A stretch of 64,000 nucleotides of DNA, taken from NCBI RefSeq assembly GCF_023370115.1, contig NZ_CP097160.1, positions 2,418,001-2,482,000 of the forward strand, in the 5' to 3' direction. The notes beneath the pieces are model-generated. The model saw only the letters and a program-made list of their open reading frames with translations, had not been told where the DNA came from and searched no databases. Shown in pieces: positions 3,295-53,408 of the stretch. The stretch comes from Gulosibacter sediminis. Its GTDB lineage: Bacteria > Actinomycetota > Actinomycetes > Actinomycetales > Microbacteriaceae. Made by a program: the position numbers and the translations under genes. Position 1 is the stretch's first letter. Each line of letters opens with the position of its first letter.

Positions 3295-4413
3295 CTAAAA
3301 GTCGCGTTCGACGAGGCGCTGAGCAAATTCTCGCAGCGCCTCCTTGACGACGCCCGACGGCAGGACGTCGAGCGACGCGGTCGCGCGGTGCACGTACTCG
3401 TGGGCGGCGTCGATGGTCTCGCGGGTGACCTCGTGGGCGCGCAGCTCGGCGATGATCGCATCGATCTCGGCGGGGTCGGCCTGCACGAGCGGTTCCGGGC
3501 GCGCAAGGGTCTCGTCGGCGCTGCCGGGTTCGCTGCCGGCCACGCGGGTACGGATGCGGTCGAGCAGGTCGGCGGCAGGCGCATCCCCCGCCGCGGCGCG
3601 CCGCTCGAGCAGCAGCACGGGCAGCGTCTCGACGCCGGCCCGCAGGTCGGTGCCGGCGCGCTTGCCGGTGGTGTCGGCGGCGGGCGAGAGGTCGATCACG
3701 TCGTCGACGATCTGGAAGGCGACGCCGACCGCCTCACCGAAGTCGCGCATCGCGGGGCGGAACTCGGCCGGCGCATCCGACAGCAGCACGCCGTACTCGC
3801 TGGCCGCGCCGATGAGCGAGCCCGTCTTGTCGGCGAGCACGCGGATGTAGTGGTCGATACGGTCTTCGCCCTCGCGCGGGCCGATGGTCTCGTGCATCTG
3901 CCCGAGCACGAGCCGCTCGAAGACGGTGGCCTGCATGCGGATCGCCTCGGCGCCAAGGTACGAGAAGATCTGCGAGGCGCGGGCGAAGAGCAGGTCGCCG
4001 GCGAGGATCGCGGTCGAGTTGCTCCAGCGCAGGTGCGCGGCGGTGACGCCGCGGCGAAGGGTCGCCTCGTCCATGACGTCGTCGTGGTAGAGCGATGCGA
4101 GGTGCGTGATTTCGACCGCGGCGGCGGCCTCGTCGAGGGCGTCGCTCACCGGCGTCGGGCCGAGCTGGGCCGCGAGTAGCACGAGCATCGGGCGCAGGCG
4201 CTTGCCGCCGGCACTCATGAGGTAGGTCGTCGTCGTAGCCGCGACCTGGTCGGAGTACTTCACCTGGTCGTGCAGCACCTGCTCGACGCGCTCGAGGCCC
4301 TCGTCAAGGGTCGCCTTGAGCTTGCGTTCGGCAGGTTTGCCGAACAACTGCTTCGCGAAGCCGGCACCGATCGCGCCGTGTGCGGGGCGGCGTGCCGAAG
4401 TCGAGGCGGTCAC
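3295..4413 (-). CDS. Polyprenyl diphosphate synthase (menaquinone side chain)
   Basis: A 372-residue trans-prenyl chain elongase that condenses isopentenyl diphosphate to build the isoprenoid tail attached by MenA. Both Asp-rich motifs are present: the first in SLYHDDVMDEATLRRG (DDxxD, near residue 107) and the second in FQIVDDVIDLS near residue 235. The conserved GGKRLRP motif is near residue 70. GTG start with AGGAGA upstream. The C-terminal 100 residues carry a family-atypical stretch rich in Ala, Arg and Glu. It lies between menG and the reductase gene on the same strand, which supports a role in quinone rather than carotenoid synthesis. Chain length cannot be read from the sequence. Confidence 0.9.
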   Translation of the reverse strand: MTASTSARRPAHGAIGAGFAKQLFGKPAERKLKATLDEGLERVEQVLHDQVKYSDQVAATTTTYLMSAGGKRLRPMLVLLAAQLGPTPVSDALDEAAAAVEITHLASLYHDDVMDEATLRRGVTAAHLRWSNSTAILAGDLLFARASQIFSYLGAEAIRMQATVFERLVLGQMHETIGPREGEDRIDHYIRVLADKTGSLIGAASEYGVLLSDAPAEFRPAMRDFGEAVGVAFQIVDDVIDLSPAADTTGKRAGTDLRAGVETLPVLLLERRAAAGDAPAADLLDRIRTRVAGSEPGSADETLARPEPLVQADPAEIDAIIAELRAHEVTRETIDAAHEYVHRATASLDVLPSGVVKEALREFAQRLVERDF

Positions 4414-44919: not shown

Positions 44920-45615
44920 GTGAGCCAAGCCATCGCCATCGTCACCGGGGCCTCGAGCGGAATCGGGCACGAGATCGTGCGCGAGCTCGCGTCGACCCAC
45001 CGCATCGTCGCGCTCGGGCGGGATGCGGCCCGGCTCGCCGCGACCGGGGCCGAGATCACGGTGACCGCCGACCTGCGCGACGCGGGCGAGTTCGCCGCTG
45101 GCGGCAAGGTCACGGCGCTCATCGACTCGCTCGACCGCGTCGACGTGCTCGTGCATTCGGCTGCCGTCGGCACGCCGGGCAGCTTCGCCGAGACCGACGC
45201 CGCCGAGTGGCACCGCCAGCTCACGACGAACGTCGTGGCGCCGGCGCTGCTCACGAGGCTCGCGCTGCCGAAGCTGCGGGATGCGGCGGGCACCGTCGTG
45301 TTCCTCGGCTCGGGTGTCTCGGTGCGCCCGGCGCACCAGATGGCGGCGTACGTCGCGTCGAAGCACGCCCTCAAGGGGCTCGCCGACTCGCTGCGGCTCG
45401 AGGAGGCCGAGCATGGCGTCCGCGTCACGACGCTCATGCCCGGCCAGGTCGACACCCCCATGCAGGTCGAACTGCAGGAGGGCCTCGGTAATACCTACCG
45501 GCCGGAGCGCTACCTACGCCCCGAGACCGTCGCTCGCGCGGTTCGGTACGTTGTTGACGCCCCCGCGGACGCTCACCTTACCGACCTCAGCATCCGCCCC
45601 CGCGTCGCGGGCTAG
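44920..45615 (+). CDS. SDR family oxidoreductase
   Basis: A 231-residue classical short-chain dehydrogenase. Cofactor motif AIVTGASSGIGHEIVRELA (TGxxxGxG), NxAG-equivalent VLVHSAAVGTPG, catalytic Ser in VFLGSGVSV and YxxxK in MAAYVASKHALKGLADSL. Substrate unknown. GTG with AAGGAG 6 nt upstream. The last 102 bp lie opposite the end of the YhgE/Pip gene. It is controlled perhaps by the MarR and ArsR proteins just upstream. Confidence 0.92.
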   Translation: MSQAIAIVTGASSGIGHEIVRELASTHRIVALGRDAARLAATGAEITVTADLRDAGEFAAGGKVTALIDSLDRVDVLVHSAAVGTPGSFAETDAAEWHRQLTTNVVAPALLTRLALPKLRDAAGTVVFLGSGVSVRPAHQMAAYVASKHALKGLADSLRLEEAEHGVRVTTLMPGQVDTPMQVELQEGLGNTYRPERYLRPETVARAVRYVVDAPADAHLTDLSIRPRVAG

Positions 45616-47916
45616 CCGCGCGATCTTCCGGCGCTCGAGCCACACGGCGACGGCGACGCCGAACAGCGCGATCGCGAACCAGATGAGCAGGTGGCCGACC
45701 GCCGCACTGACGTTGATGGTCGAGCCCGCAATGAGCGCGCGGAACGCCTCGACCGAGTACGACAGCGGCAGCCACGGGTGGATCGCCTGATAGAACGGCG
45801 GCGCCGTTTGCACGGGATACGTCGCGCCCGCTGAAGAGAGCTGGAGCACGATCATCACGAGCGCGAGGAATCGGCCCGGGGCGCCGAGCAAGGCGACGAG
45901 CGCCTGGTTCATCGCGACAAAGGTTACGCTCGCGAGGAACGCCAGACCAACGACCGGCCACACCAGCGCGTAGTCGACGCCGACGAGGAAGTGCACGACG
46001 AACAGCATGAGCGTGCTCTGCACGAGGCCCATGATCGCGCCGGGCAGGAACGCCCGCAAGGTGTCGACGAGGATCGACCCGCTGCCGCGCGCCTTGCGCA
46101 GCGGCTCGTGCATCATGAAGTACGCCATGCCGCCGACCCAGAGCGCGAGCGACATGAAGTAGGGCGCCATGCCGTCGCCGTTCTTCGCGACCTCGTTCTG
46201 GCGGCTCGTGTCGAGCTGCACCGGGTTCGAGGTGACGTCCGCCAGCGTCTCTGACTCGCTGTCGGTGTAGGAGGGCACCTCGTCGACGCCGTCCTCGAGG
46301 CCCGAGGTGAGCTCGCCGCTGCCGTCGAGCAGCTGGTCGAGACCGTCGCGCAGCGAGTTCGTGCCATCGGCGGCCTCGCCCGTGCCGTCGGCGACCTGGT
46401 GCGCGCCGTCGGAGAGCTCGTTCGCGCCGTCGCTCAGCTCGCCCGTGCCGTCGGCGAGGGTGTTCGCGCCCGAGGCGAGCGTGCTCGTGCCGCTCGCGAG
46501 CGTCGAGGCGCCGTCGGCGAGCTGGCCGTTCGCATCCGCGAGCTGCTGCGCACCCGAGTTCACCTGTGCAATGCCGTCGGCGAGCGCGCCGGAGGCGTCG
46601 CGCAGCTGCGAGGTGCCGCCCGCGAGGGTCTCGGCGCCGGTGGCGACCTGCTGGGCGCCGTCGTTGAGCTCGTTGACCTGGTCGACGATCGCGCCCGGGT
46701 CCTGCAGCGCGTCGAGGCCCGAGAGATCGATGCCGTCGAGGCTCGTCGCGGCGTCGTCGAAGCCGGTCTGCACCTGCTGCGCGCCCGACTGAATCTGCGT
46801 CACGAGCGCGAACTTTTCTTCGTCGGTGAGGGTGTCCCAGTTCGTCACGAGGTCGTCGAGGCCGGTCACGACGTCCGAGGCGCCGGTCTGCAACTCGCCG
46901 CCCTGAGCGGTGAGCTGTTCGGCGACCTGCGCGACCGTTTCGGCCGTCGACGCGGCGCCATTCACCGCATCCGCGAGCTGCTGCGTGCCGTCGGCCACCT
47001 GGCCGGCGCCGTCGGCGAGGCTCTGCGCCCCGTCGTCGAGCTGGGCGGCCTGGTCGGGCAGGCCCGAGGTCTGTTCTTCGAGCTCGGCCGTGCCGGACGC
47101 GAGTTCGTTGGCGCCACTCGCGGCCTGCTGCGCACCCGAAGAGAGCTGCTGCGCGCCCGAGTCGAGCGTGGCGGCGCCCGAGGCGAGGTCGGATGCGCCG
47201 CTCGCGGCCTGGTCGGCGCCGCTCGCGAGGGTGTCGGCGCCGCTCGCGAGCTCGCCCGTGCCGCTCACGAGCTGGTTGATGCCCACCTGCAGCTCGCCCG
47301 CGCCGTCGTCGGCGTCGCCGATGCCGTTGCCGAGCTCGGTCGAGCCGTCGGCGGCCTCTTGCAGGCTGCCGTGGATCGAGGTGAAGCCGGCGTAGATGTT
47401 CGTCAGATACTCGTCGGACACCTCGGTCGCGAGCTCATCGGCGACGACGGTGCCGATCTGGTTCGCGATCGTGCCGACGAACATGTTCGCGGCGTCGTTC
47501 GTCTCGATGTGCAGCTTGGCCTGCTTCGGGTCGTCGCCCGCGGGCGAGACCGCGTTCGCCGAGAAGTCCTCGGGGATCGTCAGCACCGCGAGCACCTCAC
47601 CGTCGGCAAGCTGCTCGGCGGCCTCTTCGGCCGACAGCTCCTCCCAGTCGAAGTTCTTCGCCTCGTCGCTGTCGACGAGCTTCTCGGTGAGCTGGTCGCC
47701 GAGGTCGACGGTCTTGGTCTCGCCGTCGGTCGTCTCGGTCGTGGTGGCGACATCGTTGTTCACGACGGCGGCCTGGATGTTGTCGAAGTTGCCCTGCGGG
47801 TCGCTGAACGAGCCCGTGAGCAGGCCCGAGTAAATCAGCGGCACCGTGGCGAGGCCTGCAAAGATGATGGCTCGCCACAGTTTTCCGTTGCGATTCTTAG
47901 CTTGCGTTTCGGTCAT
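45514..47916 (-). CDS. YhgE/Pip family membrane protein (phage-infection-protein-like)
   Basis: An 800-residue protein with one N-terminal TM helix (AIIFAGLATVPLIYSGLLTG) and five C-terminal helices (about residues 585-770) of ABC-2 type. The extracytoplasmic middle (about 200-560) is filled with heptad-like repeats such as LASGADTLASGADQAASGA and LSDGANELSDGAHQVADGT, typical of YhgE/Pip. Relatives include a phage receptor and type VII secretion-linked proteins; here the role is likely efflux. It forms an operon with the TetR gene. Its last 34 codons overlap the SDR gene in antisense. Confidence 0.88.
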   Translation of the reverse strand: MTETQAKNRNGKLWRAIIFAGLATVPLIYSGLLTGSFSDPQGNFDNIQAAVVNNDVATTTETTDGETKTVDLGDQLTEKLVDSDEAKNFDWEELSAEEAAEQLADGEVLAVLTIPEDFSANAVSPAGDDPKQAKLHIETNDAANMFVGTIANQIGTVVADELATEVSDEYLTNIYAGFTSIHGSLQEAADGSTELGNGIGDADDGAGELQVGINQLVSGTGELASGADTLASGADQAASGASDLASGAATLDSGAQQLSSGAQQAASGANELASGTAELEEQTSGLPDQAAQLDDGAQSLADGAGQVADGTQQLADAVNGAASTAETVAQVAEQLTAQGGELQTGASDVVTGLDDLVTNWDTLTDEEKFALVTQIQSGAQQVQTGFDDAATSLDGIDLSGLDALQDPGAIVDQVNELNDGAQQVATGAETLAGGTSQLRDASGALADGIAQVNSGAQQLADANGQLADGASTLASGTSTLASGANTLADGTGELSDGANELSDGAHQVADGTGEAADGTNSLRDGLDQLLDGSGELTSGLEDGVDEVPSYTDSESETLADVTSNPVQLDTSRQNEVAKNGDGMAPYFMSLALWVGGMAYFMMHEPLRKARGSGSILVDTLRAFLPGAIMGLVQSTLMLFVVHFLVGVDYALVWPVVGLAFLASVTFVAMNQALVALLGAPGRFLALVMIVLQLSSAGATYPVQTAPPFYQAIHPWLPLSYSVEAFRALIAGSTINVSAAVGHLLIWFAIALFGVAVAVWLERRKIARLARDAGADAEVGKVSVRGGVNNVPNRASDGLGA

Positions 47917-48530
47917 TTCGTGAAGTCCGTCATTGAGTAGTTGGCCGCACCAGAGGCGGCAAGGATGTTCGCGGCGAAGCGCTGCACGGTCGGTTCCAGT
48001 GCATTTTCGCCCATGAAGTCACTCGAGAGCCAGGCAATCGCGCGCCAGACCGCGCCGGCGCCGAGGAATTCGGCGCGGGCCAGGGCCTCGCGCTCGTCGA
48101 CGCCCTCGCGCAGGCGGGGTGCGAGCGGCGAGTGATGCAGGAATTGGTCGGCGAGGTAGTGGACGATGCCCGCGAGCACCGGCACGGCGGCCGGGCCACT
48201 CAGGATCGGCAGGTAGATCACCGCATCCCGCTGCAGTTCGCCGAACAGCAGCGCGAGGCGGGCGCGGGCGAAGTCGTCCCACGAGTCGCCCGGCAGCCCG
48301 CTCGGCATGCGGTCGAACAGCTCGCCGAGGCGCTGCAGGGTGGCGACGCGCACGAGGTCCGGCACGTCGGTGAAGTGCTGGTAGAAGGTCGGCCGGCTCA
48401 CGCCGGCGCGCTTCACGACATCGGTAATCGAGGGCGTGCCCCCGTCCGCAGCCAGATGGGCCCAGACCGCCTCAATGAGGGCGGCGCGGGAGCGAAGGGC
48501 GCGTGGGTCGATGGCGTTCGTGCTTGTCAC
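47913..48530 (-). CDS. TetR family transcriptional regulator
   Basis: A 205-residue repressor. The N-terminal HTH reads RAALIEAVWAHLAADGGTPS, then ITDVVKRAGVSRPTFYQHFT. The C-terminal ligand domain is not assignable. GTG start 8 nt after TAAATT, which lies inside a perfect palindrome at 48537-48558, so it should repress its own operon. It overlaps the YhgE/Pip gene by 4 bp (ATGA). Confidence 0.92.
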   Translation of the reverse strand: MTSTNAIDPRALRSRAALIEAVWAHLAADGGTPSITDVVKRAGVSRPTFYQHFTDVPDLVRVATLQRLGELFDRMPSGLPGDSWDDFARARLALLFGELQRDAVIYLPILSGPAAVPVLAGIVHYLADQFLHHSPLAPRLREGVDEREALARAEFLGAGAVWRAIAWLSSDFMGENALEPTVQRFAANILAASGAANYSMTDFTK

Positions 48531-48958: not shown

Positions 48959-50065
48959 ATGAACTCTGAAACCGGCGGTGTCGTATCGGCCCCACCAGTA
49001 CCCGACAGGAGCATTCTGGCGCCCGCCACAGCAGAATTCGCCAATCTAGTCGAGCGCCTCGTCGCCAGCGCCGAGCAGTGCCGCGGCGAGCCGCAAGCAA
49101 TGCTCGCGACCCTCAGCGAAGACGCGATTTCGCCAGAAGACTTTCCACTTCCTGGCAAGCACACGCTTGCCCTCTGGGAGCTGCTCGCAGAAGTGGCGGC
49201 CACGGATCTGGTCGCAGCGCGCACGCTCGAACCCCACCTCGACGCACTGGCCATTACTGCGCAGAGCCCCGACCCAATACCTGCCGAGGGCACTTGGGGC
49301 GTGTATGCGGCCGAAGGTGGCAACTCACCGTTGACCGCCCACCATCATCCTGGCTCGGCGTCGGACGTGTATCTGAACGGCGTCAAGCCGTGGTGCTCGC
49401 TCGCGGCCTCACTCGACGCCGCGTTGGTGACCGCCCACACGGATGGGGGACGTCAGCTATTCGCCATCGATCTTCACCACCCCGGCGTCCAGGTGGAACG
49501 GGTGCGATGGGTGAGCCGTGGGCTCGCACACGTCCCCAGCGGCCCGGTTCGTTTCGACAACGTACCCGCCACAGCCGTCGGCGCCGTGGGCTGGTATTTC
49601 GATAGACCAGGCTTTGCGTGGGGCGGAGCCGGGGTGGCCGCATGCTGGTTCGGCGGCGCCGTTGGTGTTTACCGCGATCTCGTCTCAGCGGCCGCGCGGC
49701 GGCCACCGGATCAGATTGGTTTCGCCCTACTGGGTCGCGCCGCCCGGTTGGTTCGGACCGGCAAGACTGCCCTGACCGACGCAGCGGAGCGCGTCAACAA
49801 CGCAGCATTCGATTGGCCAGACTCCCTCGCCCTGCGCAGCACCATCGCCGACATCTGCGCCGACGTGCTCGAGATCTCGGGTCTGGCGCACAGCCCTTCC
49901 GCCCTCGCGTTCGACGATGTGCATGCCCGTCGCGTCGCTGACCTCGCAATGTACCTCCAGCAGCATCACGGCGGCCGAGACGATGCCGCTCTTGGCGAGT
50001 TCATCGTGCGTGACGATCCGTGGCATGCACTCACCGGGCCCTCAACTCCGGTCGCCAAATCATGA
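48959..50065 (+). CDS. Acyl-CoA dehydrogenase-like protein
   Basis: A 368-residue protein with the acyl-CoA dehydrogenase fold: an N-terminal helical part, a central beta region (NSPLTAHHHPGSASDVYLNG, then VKPWCSLAASLDAALVTAHT) where WCS-type FAD contacts occur, and a C-terminal helical bundle (residues 220-368). The usual catalytic Glu cannot be placed with confidence, so it may be a divergent or non-fatty-acid member. AAGGAG lies 7 nt before ATG. Its stop overlaps the PIG-L/methyltransferase start by 4 bp. Confidence 0.8.
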   Translation: MNSETGGVVSAPPVPDRSILAPATAEFANLVERLVASAEQCRGEPQAMLATLSEDAISPEDFPLPGKHTLALWELLAEVAATDLVAARTLEPHLDALAITAQSPDPIPAEGTWGVYAAEGGNSPLTAHHHPGSASDVYLNGVKPWCSLAASLDAALVTAHTDGGRQLFAIDLHHPGVQVERVRWVSRGLAHVPSGPVRFDNVPATAVGAVGWYFDRPGFAWGGAGVAACWFGGAVGVYRDLVSAAARRPPDQIGFALLGRAARLVRTGKTALTDAAERVNNAAFDWPDSLALRSTIADICADVLEISGLAHSPSALAFDDVHARRVADLAMYLQQHHGGRDDAALGEFIVRDDPWHALTGPSTPVAKS

Positions 50066-51429
50066 GCGCCCCGCGGTTCACGCACGACGAGCCCGGCACG
50101 GGCGCTTCCGACTGGGATTGTGCGCACGAGCTTCCCGGCGTCACGATGACACAACTCCTCTCCCCAGGCGCCTCGCTCATCGTCGTCGTCGCCCATCCTG
50201 ACGATGAAACACTCGGAGCGGGTGGTCTGATTGCGACCGCGGCCGCACACGGGCATGACGTCACCGTGGTGCTCTGCAGCGACGGTGAAGCGTCGCATCC
50301 CGACTCCCGCACGCACACCCGCCGAGAACTCGCCGTGATTCGACGGCGAGAGTTCACCGCAGCTATGGACGCGCTCGGGAGCGCGTCGAAGAAGTCCTGC
50401 AACCGTGTTTCGTTCACTGCGCTGGGGCTGCCCGACGGACATGTGGGCGAGTTCGGTACAGAAATTGAGCGGGAACTTCGACGACTCGTGACTCCGAGCA
50501 CCACCATTGCATCGCCATGGCGGAGCGACGGCCATTCCGACCACGACGCGGTCGGCGAGATAGCCGCGGCAGTAGCCGCCGAGCTCGGGCTGACACTGCT
50601 TGAATTTCCGATCTGGTACTGGCACTGGGCTCAGCCCGCCGCCGATCCTCGCTGGCGTTCCATGCGCACCTTTCGGCTCGATCCGAGCGCGGCGGGCGCA
50701 AAACGGCTTGCGATGGCCGCATACCCGTCCCAGACGACGCCGCTCTCCGCAGCGAAAGAGGATGCTCCTGTGCTCACAGAGCAGTTCTTGCAGCATTTTC
50801 ACCGAGACACGGAGGTGTTCCTTCGCACCGAACCCGGCCCGCTCGGAGCGCCGCAAGCGCGCGAAACATTTAACTCGCTCTTCGACAGCGACCCGGATCC
50901 CTGGCGCTTCGACAGCGATTACGAGGTGCGCAAACGAGAGGTCCTGCTTACATCGCTCGCTCGCCCGGTCTACCGGCAAGCGTTGGAGCTCGGGAGCGCG
51001 ACCGGCGCGCTCACCGAACGGCTGGCGCAGCGGTGCGAATGTGTGGTCGCGATCGATGCGAGTGACGTGGCCGTCGAGCGCAGTCGCGTCCGCTTGTCGC
51101 AGTACCGGCATGTTCGTGTCGAGCATCGCGAGGTGCCAGCGGATTGGCCAGACACCGGTCCCTTCGATCTGGTGGTCATGTCTGAATTCGGCTACTACCT
51201 CACCCGTATCGAACTGGAGGAGGTCTTCGAACGGATCGAAGCGTCCGTGACGCCAGACGCACAGGTGGTGCTCTGCCATTGGTTGCACCCGATCGACGGT
51301 TGGGCGCTGGACGGGCGTGACGTGCACGAAGCCGCTCGGCGACGTGGATGGACTGCGCGAGTCACGCACCACGAAGCGGACTTCCTCTTGGAAGTCTTCA
51401 CATTGAACGCGTCGGCTGACTCGATATGA
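50062..51429 (+). CDS. Fusion of PIG-L deacetylase and SAM-dependent methyltransferase
   Basis: A 455-residue bifunctional protein. Residues 35-240 form a PIG-L zinc deacetylase: VVAHPDDETLGAGGLIAT (AHPDDE) and SDGHSDHDAVGEIAA with the third ligand His. Residues 275-440 form a class I methyltransferase: ALELGSATGALTERLAQRCE (GxxxG SAM motif) and PFDLVVMSEFGYYLTRIELE, like NodS-type enzymes. It would deacetylate and methylate a glycan-like substrate. It overlaps both neighbours by 4 bp (ATGA). The substrate is unknown; mycothiol-type or aminosugar compounds are possible. Confidence 0.85.
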   Translation: MSAPRFTHDEPGTGASDWDCAHELPGVTMTQLLSPGASLIVVVAHPDDETLGAGGLIATAAAHGHDVTVVLCSDGEASHPDSRTHTRRELAVIRRREFTAAMDALGSASKKSCNRVSFTALGLPDGHVGEFGTEIERELRRLVTPSTTIASPWRSDGHSDHDAVGEIAAAVAAELGLTLLEFPIWYWHWAQPAADPRWRSMRTFRLDPSAAGAKRLAMAAYPSQTTPLSAAKEDAPVLTEQFLQHFHRDTEVFLRTEPGPLGAPQARETFNSLFDSDPDPWRFDSDYEVRKREVLLTSLARPVYRQALELGSATGALTERLAQRCECVVAIDASDVAVERSRVRLSQYRHVRVEHREVPADWPDTGPFDLVVMSEFGYYLTRIELEEVFERIEASVTPDAQVVLCHWLHPIDGWALDGRDVHEAARRRGWTARVTHHEADFLLEVFTLNASADSI

Positions 51430-52154
51430 GCGGTCCTGCGTGCTCGGCATTGGCGGTGGTGATTCCGGTACGCGACGAAGCTGCGCTGGTGGGACGAGCG
51501 GTCGTCGCGGCGCTGGCTGCGATGACCGCGGCCGAGTCGAGTTTTGGCGTCCGCACTCTCCTTGTTGTCGTATTCGACACATGCGTCGATGACTCCGAGC
51601 CTGCCGCCCGCGCCGCATCGGCGGGCGATCCGCGAGTGGAGTTTGTGCAGGCCCGATTGGGCGCGGTCGGACGAACACGCGCCGTCGGCGTCGCCACGGC
51701 CTTAGGAATCCTGAGGCGGCCGCCCGCAGATGTCTGGATCGCCAACAGCGACGGCGACTCTCAAGTACCGGTCCACTGGTGCGTCGAGCAACTGCGCGAG
51801 GCAGCGGAGGGCGCCGCCGCCATAGTGGGTACGGTGATCCCGATCGGCAATAGCGACATGCACGAAACCCTCCAGACGTGGGCAGACGACTATCGGCCGG
51901 TTGATGGGCACGAGCACATCCATGGCGCGAACCTCGGTGTCCGAGCCGATGCGTACCTCGCTTCGGGCGGTTTCCCTCCGGTCACACACGACGAGGATGT
52001 GCGTCTCGTGCGGGCGCTGCGGGCTGGGGGTTATCGCGTCGTGGCGTCCGCTCGATGTCCGGTGCGCACCTCCGCTCGGACACTCGGTCGCGCGCCGCAC
52101 GGTTTCGCGGACTACCTCGCCGGGTTGCAATCGGACGCGCCGCGCAATCGTTGA
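51426..52154 (+). CDS. Glycosyltransferase family 2 protein
   Basis: A 242-residue GT-A fold transferase: LAVVIPVRDEAALVGRAVVA at the start, a DxD-type site in WIANSDGDSQVPVHWC near residue 105, and the acceptor motif GFPPVTHDEDVRLVRALRAG near residue 187. No membrane helix is present, so it is cytoplasmic. It overlaps the fusion gene by 4 bp and is third in the operon. The sugar donor and acceptor are unknown. Confidence 0.88.
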   Translation: MSGPACSALAVVIPVRDEAALVGRAVVAALAAMTAAESSFGVRTLLVVVFDTCVDDSEPAARAASAGDPRVEFVQARLGAVGRTRAVGVATALGILRRPPADVWIANSDGDSQVPVHWCVEQLREAAEGAAAIVGTVIPIGNSDMHETLQTWADDYRPVDGHEHIHGANLGVRADAYLASGGFPPVTHDEDVRLVRALRAGGYRVVASARCPVRTSARTLGRAPHGFADYLAGLQSDAPRNR

Positions 52155-52207
52155 GGTCGAACACAAGCGAGTCTGATACGCCTTGCGTACAGACGAACGG
52201 AGATCTC

Positions 52208-52732
52208 ATGGCAACTCAGAGCACATCCACGAAGACCAGCGCCCGCCGTAGCACCAGGCAGAATGCGGAGGGCGGTTTCAAGGCATCGGCATCACTCACC
52301 GACGACCTCCAACGAGTACACGTCGACCTCATCGAACTTCATCTCCAGGGCAAGCAGGCGCACTGGAATGTTGTCGGCAAGAACTTCCGTGATCTCCACC
52401 GCCAACTGGACGAGATTGTCCAGAGCGCGCGCGAGTTCAGCGATGAGGTCGCCGAACGCATGCGCGCGCTCCATGCCATTCCGGACGGACGCAGCGGCAC
52501 GGTGGCCAAGAACACGACGCTGCCCGAGTTCCCCGCGGGCGAAGTCGACACTGCGGACACAATCGACCTCATCACCGAGCGACTCGAAACCACGGTTGGC
52601 ACGCTTCGGGACGTGCACGACAACGTCGACGAACAAGATCCGACGAGCGCCGACCTGCTGCACGCGATCATCCAACGCTTCGAGCAACTCGCCTGGATGG
52701 TGAGCGCGGAGAATCGCACACCGTCAAAGTAA
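52208..52732 (+). CDS. dps: Dps family DNA-protecting ferritin
   Basis: A 174-residue Dps protein that oxidises and stores iron and binds DNA in stress. The N-terminal tail (MATQSTSTKTSARRSTRQNA) is basic, as in DNA-binding Dps. The ferroxidase signature is QAHWNVVGKNFRDLHRQLDE near residue 55 with the His, Asp and Glu ligands. CGGAG is 6 nt before ATG. It follows the GT2 operon after 53 bp and may share stress control with it; it is followed by a hairpin. Confidence 0.93.
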   Translation: MATQSTSTKTSARRSTRQNAEGGFKASASLTDDLQRVHVDLIELHLQGKQAHWNVVGKNFRDLHRQLDEIVQSAREFSDEVAERMRALHAIPDGRSGTVAKNTTLPEFPAGEVDTADTIDLITERLETTVGTLRDVHDNVDEQDPTSADLLHAIIQRFEQLAWMVSAENRTPSK

Positions 52733-52791: not shown

Positions 52792-52828
52792 CGCCGTTGA
52801 CACCAGACCCGACTCGCTGTCAACGGCG
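52792..52828. terminator. Inverted repeat between dps and the IS remnant
   Basis: CGCCGTTGACA (52792-52802) pairs with TGTCAACGGCG (52818-52828), an 11-bp perfect stem with a 15-nt loop; no T-run follows. It covers the stop codon of the transposase remnant, so it may be an end of the old element instead of a terminator. Confidence 0.4.
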
Positions 52829-53408
52829 CCGGTGGTAGGTCCGTTCGATCCGTGTCACGATTGCGAAACGAAGGTCGTCGCGAGTGGCCCATCGTCGGCT
52901 GTTGAGCACGTTTTTCTGGAGCAGGGCGACGACCGATTCCATTGCCGCGTAGTCGCCGGTAGCGCCGACCCGGCCCATGGATCCGATGAGCCCCGCCCGG
53001 TCGAGTTCGGCTTGGAAGCGCCGCGAACGAAACTGGCCGCCTCTCTCGATGTGAACCGTCGTGCCGACGTGGTCGCAGCGCTGGATCGCCATCCGTAAGG
53101 CGGCGACCGCGAGCTCTCAAGTCATGCGATTGTTGGTTGAGTATGCGACGATCCGGTTCGACCAGGCATCCTTCACGGCGCACTGATAGACCTAGCGCGG
53201 ACCGGTCGGGTGCTCCGAGACTTGCCTGCGCCAGAGCCAGTCAGCGCCACCAGACGCACCGCACTGACGCGGTGAACCCGTTCTCGGCGAACTCATCTGC
53301 GATGAACCGGAATCCGAACGCGGGGTCATCGGCATGCACGTCAATGGCCGCGTTGGTCAAGTGCGCGTCGCCGCCGTATTCCTCGTCCAGTTCGTTGTCG
53401 TTGCTCAT
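52820..53408 (-). mobile_element. Decayed IS3-family transposase (orfB remnant)
   Basis: Minus-strand translation matches the IS3 transposase: AIDVHADDPAFGFRFIADE near the start, then after a deletion VYQCAVKDAWSNRIVAYSTN, and HIERGGQFRSRRFQAELDRA, GSMGRVGATGDYAAMESVVA and IVTRIERTYHRRR. It is broken: a TGA interrupts NNRMT-stop-ELAVAAL, a central stretch is missing, and the second catalytic Asp (normally HSDRG) reads HIERG. The third catalytic residue (Glu in MESVV) remains. No flanking target duplication is recognised. Confidence 0.8.

Follow-up and report, generated by a model that had tools for sequence, protein, structure and literature searches.

We propose that a three-gene operon of the actinobacterium Gulosibacter sediminis makes a small glycoside with an N-methylated amino sugar, which would protect cells in stationary phase, during drying or under oxidative stress; this is the reading to which we lean, with little more than even confidence. 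The operon lies on a stretch of 64,000 nucleotides (NZ_CP097160.1, positions 2,418,001 to 2,482,000; "the window", in whose own numbering positions are given here) and encodes an acyl-CoA dehydrogenase (ACAD)-fold flavoprotein, a PIG-L deacetylase fused to a NodS-type methyltransferase, and a soluble GT2 glycosyltransferase (GT). It is a real conserved unit and, because two unrelated deacetylases (PIG-L and NodB-type) fill one and the same place in it, sequence comparison gives strong evidence for de-N-acetylation followed by NodS-type methylation as its core chemistry. The parts of the operon are:

48959..50065 (+), gene for an ACAD-fold flavoprotein of 368 aa, proposed flavin-dependent oxidase/oxygenase (PF02770, predicted model, co-conservation)
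50062..50065 (+), ATGA overlap of genes 1 and 2 (sequence)
50062..50847 (+), PIG-L deacetylase domain, about residues 1-262 of the fusion protein (PF02585; HPDDE)
50848..51429 (+), NodS-type S-adenosylmethionine (SAM) methyltransferase domain, fused to PIG-L (PF05401; profile matches)
51426..51429 (+), ATGA overlap of genes 2 and 3 (sequence)
51426..52154 (+), GT2 glycosyltransferase, small and soluble, 242 aa (PF00535; DxD; GT-A model)

The list of open reading frames (ORFs), the sequence and Pfam bear out the three genes, their 4-bp overlaps and the families that an initial annotation, made from the sequence alone, had named. The ACAD-like gene starts with an ATG preceded by AAGGAG, the fusion gene occupies 50062-51429 (+) in both ORF list and sequence, and 4 bp are shared at each of the two junctions. 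The operon proper is 48959-52154; the end at 52732 given in the initial annotation takes in dps, a separate gene which begins 53 bp past the GT stop.

Profile searches of ACAD, methyltransferase and PIG-L were run over 396 genomes of the phylum (Actinomycetota). The ACAD-subfamily profile gave a bimodal result, with 50 genomes at 95 bits or more and the remaining 42 matching genomes below 70. For the methyltransferase, 50 genomes scored at least 89 bits (three of them through contig-edge fragments of 89-141 bits) and two further ones 85 and 77. Both proteins occur in 47 genomes; the ACAD was found without the methyltransferase in G041, G152 and G433, and the methyltransferase without the ACAD in G262 (which has an ACAD fragment at a contig end), G346 and G392. 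Operon-type PIG-L, scoring 218 bits or more, was present in 22 genomes, each of which also has the ACAD; the next-best genome reached 150 bits. The initial annotation had made its proposal depend on these families co-occurring elsewhere, and on the 47 genomes and the controls described next the proposal stands.

Leaving aside the window's own genome, there are 49 ACAD-first neighbourhoods, all of which we fetched with up to 6 kb on each side. This sample is L031-L079 only, L080-L090 having come via the PIG-L/methyltransferase protein, and the profiles used in the neighbour search were built partly from the genomes of L079-L090. Neighbourhoods of 20 ordinary, lower-scoring ACAD matches served as controls (one, L095, without an ACAD profile match at 25 bits). 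Among the 24 ACAD-first A-type loci, PIG-L, methyltransferase and GT were each present in 21 and all four parts in 19, while each of the three partners was found at 0 of the 20 control loci, which rules out a chance grouping of the genes. The 80 named loci, the highest-ranking of 536 confirmed ones and for the most part from Arthrobacter relatives, have PIG-L in 78, the methyltransferase in 79, GT in 77 and all four parts in 77, with PIG-L and methyltransferase fused in 77 of the 78. Stop codons were compared in 77 named loci where the four parts all lie on the + strand. An [AGT]TGA stop, which overlaps a possible start, ends the ACAD gene in 73 of them and the methyltransferase gene in 60; the GT gene, without a fixed partner and taken as the internal control, has one in 18. 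Because of this difference the coupling goes beyond chance, and translational overlap of the genes is, as judged from these stops, a conserved design.

Sampling outside the Actinomycetota was of a plasmid collection, where 11 of the 12 loci viewed show the set. The carriers are Deinococcus, Acinetobacter ursingii, A. baumannii, Pandoraea, Bradyrhizobium, Sulfitobacter, Kitasatospora, two Comamonas, Cupriavidus and Rubrobacter (the last with a different deacetylase); Methylobacterium sp. FF17 (L203) gave an ACAD match with the partners not found at the locus. The gene set spans Actinomycetota, Pseudomonadota and Deinococcus, at least three phyla. Its arrangement varies: the GT is on the opposite strand in Deinococcus and Bradyrhizobium and is unannotated yet present as an ORF in Pandoraea and Kitasatospora, and the PIG-L gene of Cupriavidus lies about 3 kb off on the opposite strand. 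Other genes seen beside the set on plasmids (MFS, DUF421, CsbD, Ku and LigD) occur at 0 of the 35 A-type loci and, among the 80 named loci, only as MFS 1, DUF421 1, LigD 2 and Ku 1. Two loci of a single genus (L034 and L036, genus g54) keep ACAD and PIG-L with no methyltransferase or GT in the stretch.

Membership of the fusion protein in the PIG-L family is clear (PF02585, 91.8 bits over residues 40-171; cut-off 28.2). The HPDDE motif is kept in 115 of 115 aligned operon homologues and the later Asp/His residues in at least 116 of 117; these residues are shared with MshB, BshB and diacetylchitobiose deacetylases, from which the operon protein differs by its fusion to a methyltransferase. Against solved structures, the PIG-L profile matched TT1542 (86 bits), diacetylchitobiose deacetylases (82) and MshB (up to 64), and glycopeptide deacetylases too.

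The 25 Rubrobacter-type loci (L054-L078; nearly one lineage, 24 being in family f34) have the methyltransferase in all 25 and the GT in 22, and PIG-L in none. We considered that PIG-L might merely be unlinked there and rejected this: 13 of the 25 genomes have no operon-type PIG-L anywhere, the best match being 68 bits compared with about 300 for the operon type, and a NodB-type gene was found upstream. On R. indicoceani plasmid NZ_CP031116.1 an annotated polysaccharide deacetylase of the NodB family (L200:5874-6746) lies 44 bp upstream of the ACAD gene; it matches PF01522 at 92 bits and its best NCBIfam model is NodB, at 113.4 bits with a cut-off of 240. A NodB-family CE4 homologue is present at 25 of 25 Rubrobacter-type loci, always upstream and on the ACAD strand, at hit-to-hit distances of -15 to 573 bases, with the motif TFDDGP in all 25 and an RPP-like motif in 19. 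The same search found none at the 35 A-type, 80 named or 20 control loci. The fusion of PIG-L to the methyltransferase, together with this exchange of deacetylases, suggests a direct coupling of deacetylation and methylation, and the exchange gives the operon a testable reaction order, N-deacetylation and then N-methylation. Within the set, 23 of the 25 Rubrobacter-type loci also hold a pyridine-nucleotide flavin adenine dinucleotide (FAD) oxidoreductase, which might supply electrons to the flavoprotein.

The second domain of the fusion protein matches PF05401 (NodS) at 52.6 bits. Compared with structures, its profile scored 225.8 bits to 4isc_A, titled only 'Methyltransferase', and 106.9 bits to NodS; Ser112, Glu113 and Tyr116 are kept in 118 of 118 aligned operon loci. 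The third protein belongs to GT2 (PF00535, 23.7 bits; cut-off 23.3), both Asp of its DxD motif (D109 and D111) being kept in 113 of 113 aligned. Its predicted model (predicted local distance difference test, pLDDT, 93.5) has a GT-A fold, which aligns with WrtF 9omi (Z 22.1, root-mean-square deviation (rmsd) 2.5, 184 aligned), and the fold comparison gave no specific match. A glucosyl-3-phosphoglycerate synthase domain is fused to the GT at 9 of the 25 Rubrobacter-type and 1 of the 35 A-type loci. At L068:1569-3239 (-) this fusion reaches 341 bits, over the curated cut-off, with weaker matches at eight other Rubrobacter-type loci; since only 1 of the 4 fusion proteins tested passes that cut-off, the fusion is no general clue to what the GT does.

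The initial annotation called the first protein acyl-CoA dehydrogenase-like, which holds for its fold and not for the catalytic residue. Its sole Pfam match is the ACAD middle domain (PF02770, 32.8 bits, just under the cut-off of 33.3), and the predicted model (pLDDT 88.5) has the ACAD fold, with fold matches at Z 30-32: isovaleryl-CoA dehydrogenase 4kto (Z 31.9, rmsd 2.9, 331 aligned), TdsC 5xdc (Z 31.6, rmsd 2.7, 321 aligned) and KijD3 4kcf with a dTDP-amino sugar (Z 31.5, rmsd 2.9, 330 aligned). The fold is common to KijD3/DnmZ nitrososynthases and DszC/TdsC monooxygenases; KijD3, which by its structure title acts on a dTDP-amino sugar, resembles the operon protein in fold only and is tied with 4kto. 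Two residues, Glu91 (122 of 122) and Gln335 (116 of 116), are kept in the aligned operon loci. Ordinary ACADs have their catalytic Glu in a C-terminal [Y/L/F]EGT motif, seen in 10 of 19 control ORFs. At this position, aligned by hand on shared anchors, the window protein has His336; the 116 A-type rows with a letter there show His in 75, Ser in 12, Trp in 11, Gln in 8, Glu in 2 and others in 8, and the Rubrobacter-type rows His in 25 of 25. The usual dehydrogenase base thus appears lost in nearly all operon homologues. The alternative base position of the isovaleryl-CoA dehydrogenase type, which we take to be the column of window Gly222, holds Gly in 121 of 122 A-type rows, the window's included. 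The missing usual base makes dehydrogenation less likely for the window-type flavoprotein, which would more probably be a flavin-dependent oxygenase than an acyl-CoA dehydrogenase.

The initial annotation had linked the operon to stress through dps, and the company of dps, catalase and trehalose genes, with published co-regulation in A. baumannii, agrees with this: stress-gene neighbours of the operon are recurrent. Downstream of the operon the window has:

52208..52732 (+), dps, belonging to the wider cassette in this genus (PF00210)
52823..53092 (-), IS3 transposase remnant, C-terminal quarter (NF033516)

The Dps protein matches PF00210. The operon is in 3 of 11 genomes of the genus, and the cassette-type Dps only in the same three, one copy being a 57-residue remnant; the remaining Dps proteins of the genus are 30-34% identical to it. 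The remnant, which is C-terminal, lies beside the operon of genus-mate G005 (L081, about 4011-4181, -). In the window, G009 and G399 the dps gene comes after the GT; among the 80 named loci it is in the stretch of 18, in 14 of these no more than 215 bp upstream of the ACAD, and it is in the stretch of 5 of the 35 A-type loci. Catalase is found at 6 of the 35 A-type loci (three of the six being of genus g54) and 7 of the 80 named loci, compared with 1 of the 20 controls. Upstream of the ACAD, patterns that we take to be those of stress sigma factors occur in no more than 2 of 35 A-type, 2 of 80 named and 0 of 25 Rubrobacter-type loci, with none in the window.

Trehalose genes join the set on some plasmids. 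Two from Comamonas carry six-gene units (L201:6661-11657 and L204:6445-11413) in the order otsA-ACAD-PIG-L-methyltransferase-GT-otsB, all in one direction with overlaps or few-base gaps; on the A. ursingii plasmid the operon is found with a catalase and an iron-containing redox enzyme, and otsAB is on the other strand. DtpC is reported to protect dried A. baumannii together with KatE (2026; PMC13232832). The redox enzyme on the A. ursingii plasmid may be this protein. The operon copy in A. baumannii (L191) has no catalase within 12 kb.

Evidence of co-regulation comes from a 2017 RNA-seq table for A. baumannii (PMC5660220, Table 2), in which the genes ACICU_02432-02435 (glycosyltransferase, SAM methyltransferase, LmbE, ACAD-related) form a single operon; it has the same four functions, with PIG-L and methyltransferase as separate genes, unlike the fusion in the window. 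As tabulated there, all four genes were down 31- to 62-fold in two colistin-dependent mutants, as were otsA (27, 50), otsB (12, 35) and catalase ACICU_01426 (22, 31). A further locus of A. baumannii, ABUW_2433-2443 with katE and hydrophilins, was tied to (p)ppGpp and drying in 2025 (PMC12742793), in passages on that locus which do not mention this operon. The initial annotation knew of no assigned function for the combination, and we found none in the literature, most subscription papers and preprints lying outside coverage; the A. baumannii version had, however, already been tabulated as one operon, as far as that source goes without discussion (PMC5660220).

In the pathway that we propose, the soluble GT2 enzyme would move an N-acetylhexosamine from a nucleoside diphosphate (NDP)-sugar onto a small acceptor. 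The PIG-L domain, given its family and intact active site, would then strip the N-acetyl group; the fused domain, of NodS type by family, would methylate the freed amine; and the flavoprotein, which has the ACAD fold, would oxidise the product or the acceptor. Dps could form a parallel arm of the same stress state, and the trehalose co-made in some hosts may be a co-protectant or an acceptor. If true, a protectant not yet isolated is made by a common operon, as yet without a name, that soil actinobacteria, Deinococcus, rhizobia and hospital Acinetobacter share; judging by the dps, catalase and trehalose genes next to it, dry-state survival may have a component that has so far gone uncounted. 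A wider possibility, which we hold as tentative and rather doubtful, is that the products are a new class of stress metabolite, N-methylated and perhaps N-oxidised amino-sugar glycosides that stabilise dry or oxidatively stressed cells or scavenge radicals in them across at least three phyla, PIG-L and NodB-type enzymes having been recruited for the same step.

Several points weigh against a protective amino-sugar glycoside. Product, substrate and phenotype are all inferred, and neither the deacetylase nor the methyltransferase satisfies a curated model with a known substrate. The deacetylase swap may represent one or two events only, as 24 of the 25 loci are of one family. Catalase and dps are at 0 of the 25 Rubrobacter-type loci and are absent from most neighbourhoods; trehalose genes adjoin the operon only in Comamonas, on one Acinetobacter plasmid and weakly at L050, and the Comamonas OtsA proteins (527 and 502 bits) fall below the OtsA cut-off of 565. 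For the flavoprotein, the predicted model fits dehydrogenases and oxygenases equally, so that fold does not decide; 2 of the 116 A-type homologues do carry Glu at the usual base position; and the alternative position is Asp in 25 of 25 Rubrobacter-type rows, making another kind of base possible in those proteins. The interpretation in the initial annotation is, taken as a whole, partly supported.

Bringing together a GT2 enzyme, a de-N-acetylase (in the Rubrobacter-type operon even of the NodB family) and a NodS-type N-methyltransferase recalls the NodC-NodB-NodS logic of Nod-factor (lipochitooligosaccharide) synthesis. The operon could make a similar signal or lipid, the GT2 building a short GlcNAc chain whose end the deacetylase and NodS-type enzyme modify, and the ACAD-like enzyme, as its fold might allow, producing an unsaturated acyl group for the amine. 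We think this unlikely. The window protein scores 66.7 bits to the NodS equivalog, whose cut-off is 300; its operon has PIG-L and no NodB, and the Rubrobacter gene is itself well below the NodB cut-off. NodC is not among the NCBIfam matches of the GT at E 0.01, and this enzyme consists of a small soluble GT-A domain. The annotated gene sets viewed name no acyltransferase of any kind, and no NodA, for which no dedicated search was made; an ACAD-fold flavoprotein stands in place of the acyltransferase, 114 of 116 A-type proteins lack the usual dehydrogenase Glu, and the neighbours relate to stress, not symbiosis. A modified trehalose, in which trehalose or an OtsA-made analogue supplied by otsAB as the acceptor bears the deacetylated, N-methylated amino sugar, would make sense of the six-gene Comamonas units, of otsAB beside the operon in A. 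ursingii and of the co-regulation with otsAB in A. baumannii (PMC5660220). Shared regulation accounts for this linkage equally well, however, and otsA-like genes are near only 1 of 35 A-type, 0 of 25 Rubrobacter-type and 0 of 80 named loci, which leaves this reading quite improbable.

We give little credence to an antibiotic, toxin or other specialised metabolite with a role in competition: the enzymes are typical tailoring ones, and the distribution is patchy (3 of 11 genus genomes) with carriage on plasmids, but neighbour clustering of the fetched stretches revealed no recurring scaffold-making gene, the same core is kept in at least three phyla, and expression in A. baumannii follows stress genes (PMC5660220). 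Extremely improbable is a low-molecular-weight thiol made in the manner of mycothiol or bacillithiol, although MshB/BshB-type PIG-L deacetylases are distant relatives and the stress context would suit it. A protective thiol, one suggestion of the initial annotation, finds no backing in the MshB, Mca and BshB equivalogs, which the operon protein matches at 33.5-35.4 bits where the cut-offs are 182.5-277; the gene set has no cysteine ligase, and Mca is clearly encoded elsewhere in the genome (351 bits). A third PIG-L protein of this genome, outside the window (G000:C1:2404037-2404531), scores 116 bits to MshB, whose cut-off of 224 it does not reach.

In G. sediminis the operon differs in composition from its surroundings. 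GC content at third codon positions (GC3) is 0.72 in each of the three operon genes and 0.76 in dps, as against 0.87-0.93 in six neighbours; over 50 window ORFs (mechanical list) the median is 0.90, with the fusion gene and dps at the bottom of the ranking. The IS3 remnant matches NF033516 at positions 267-355 of 369 (56.4 bits, E 2.8e-15; whole-protein cut-off 160), has no Pfam match at 52823-53092, and is matched by 1598 plasmid records. The low GC3, the remnant beyond dps and the patchy distribution would fit a gain of operon and dps together by horizontal transfer, for which the initial annotation had left room; the remnant it cited is a fragment, yet real.

In A. baumannii record L191 (3.66 Mb, labelled as a plasmid, which may be a chromosome) the operon (L191:10856-13872) is a few kb from predicted resistance genes (L191:18409-24540). 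In the window, two genes diverge from the operon: 45514-47916 (-) encodes a protein of 800 aa whose membrane domains are of ABC-2 type and whose middle part is repetitive, and adjoining it 47913-48530 (-) encodes a TetR-type regulator.

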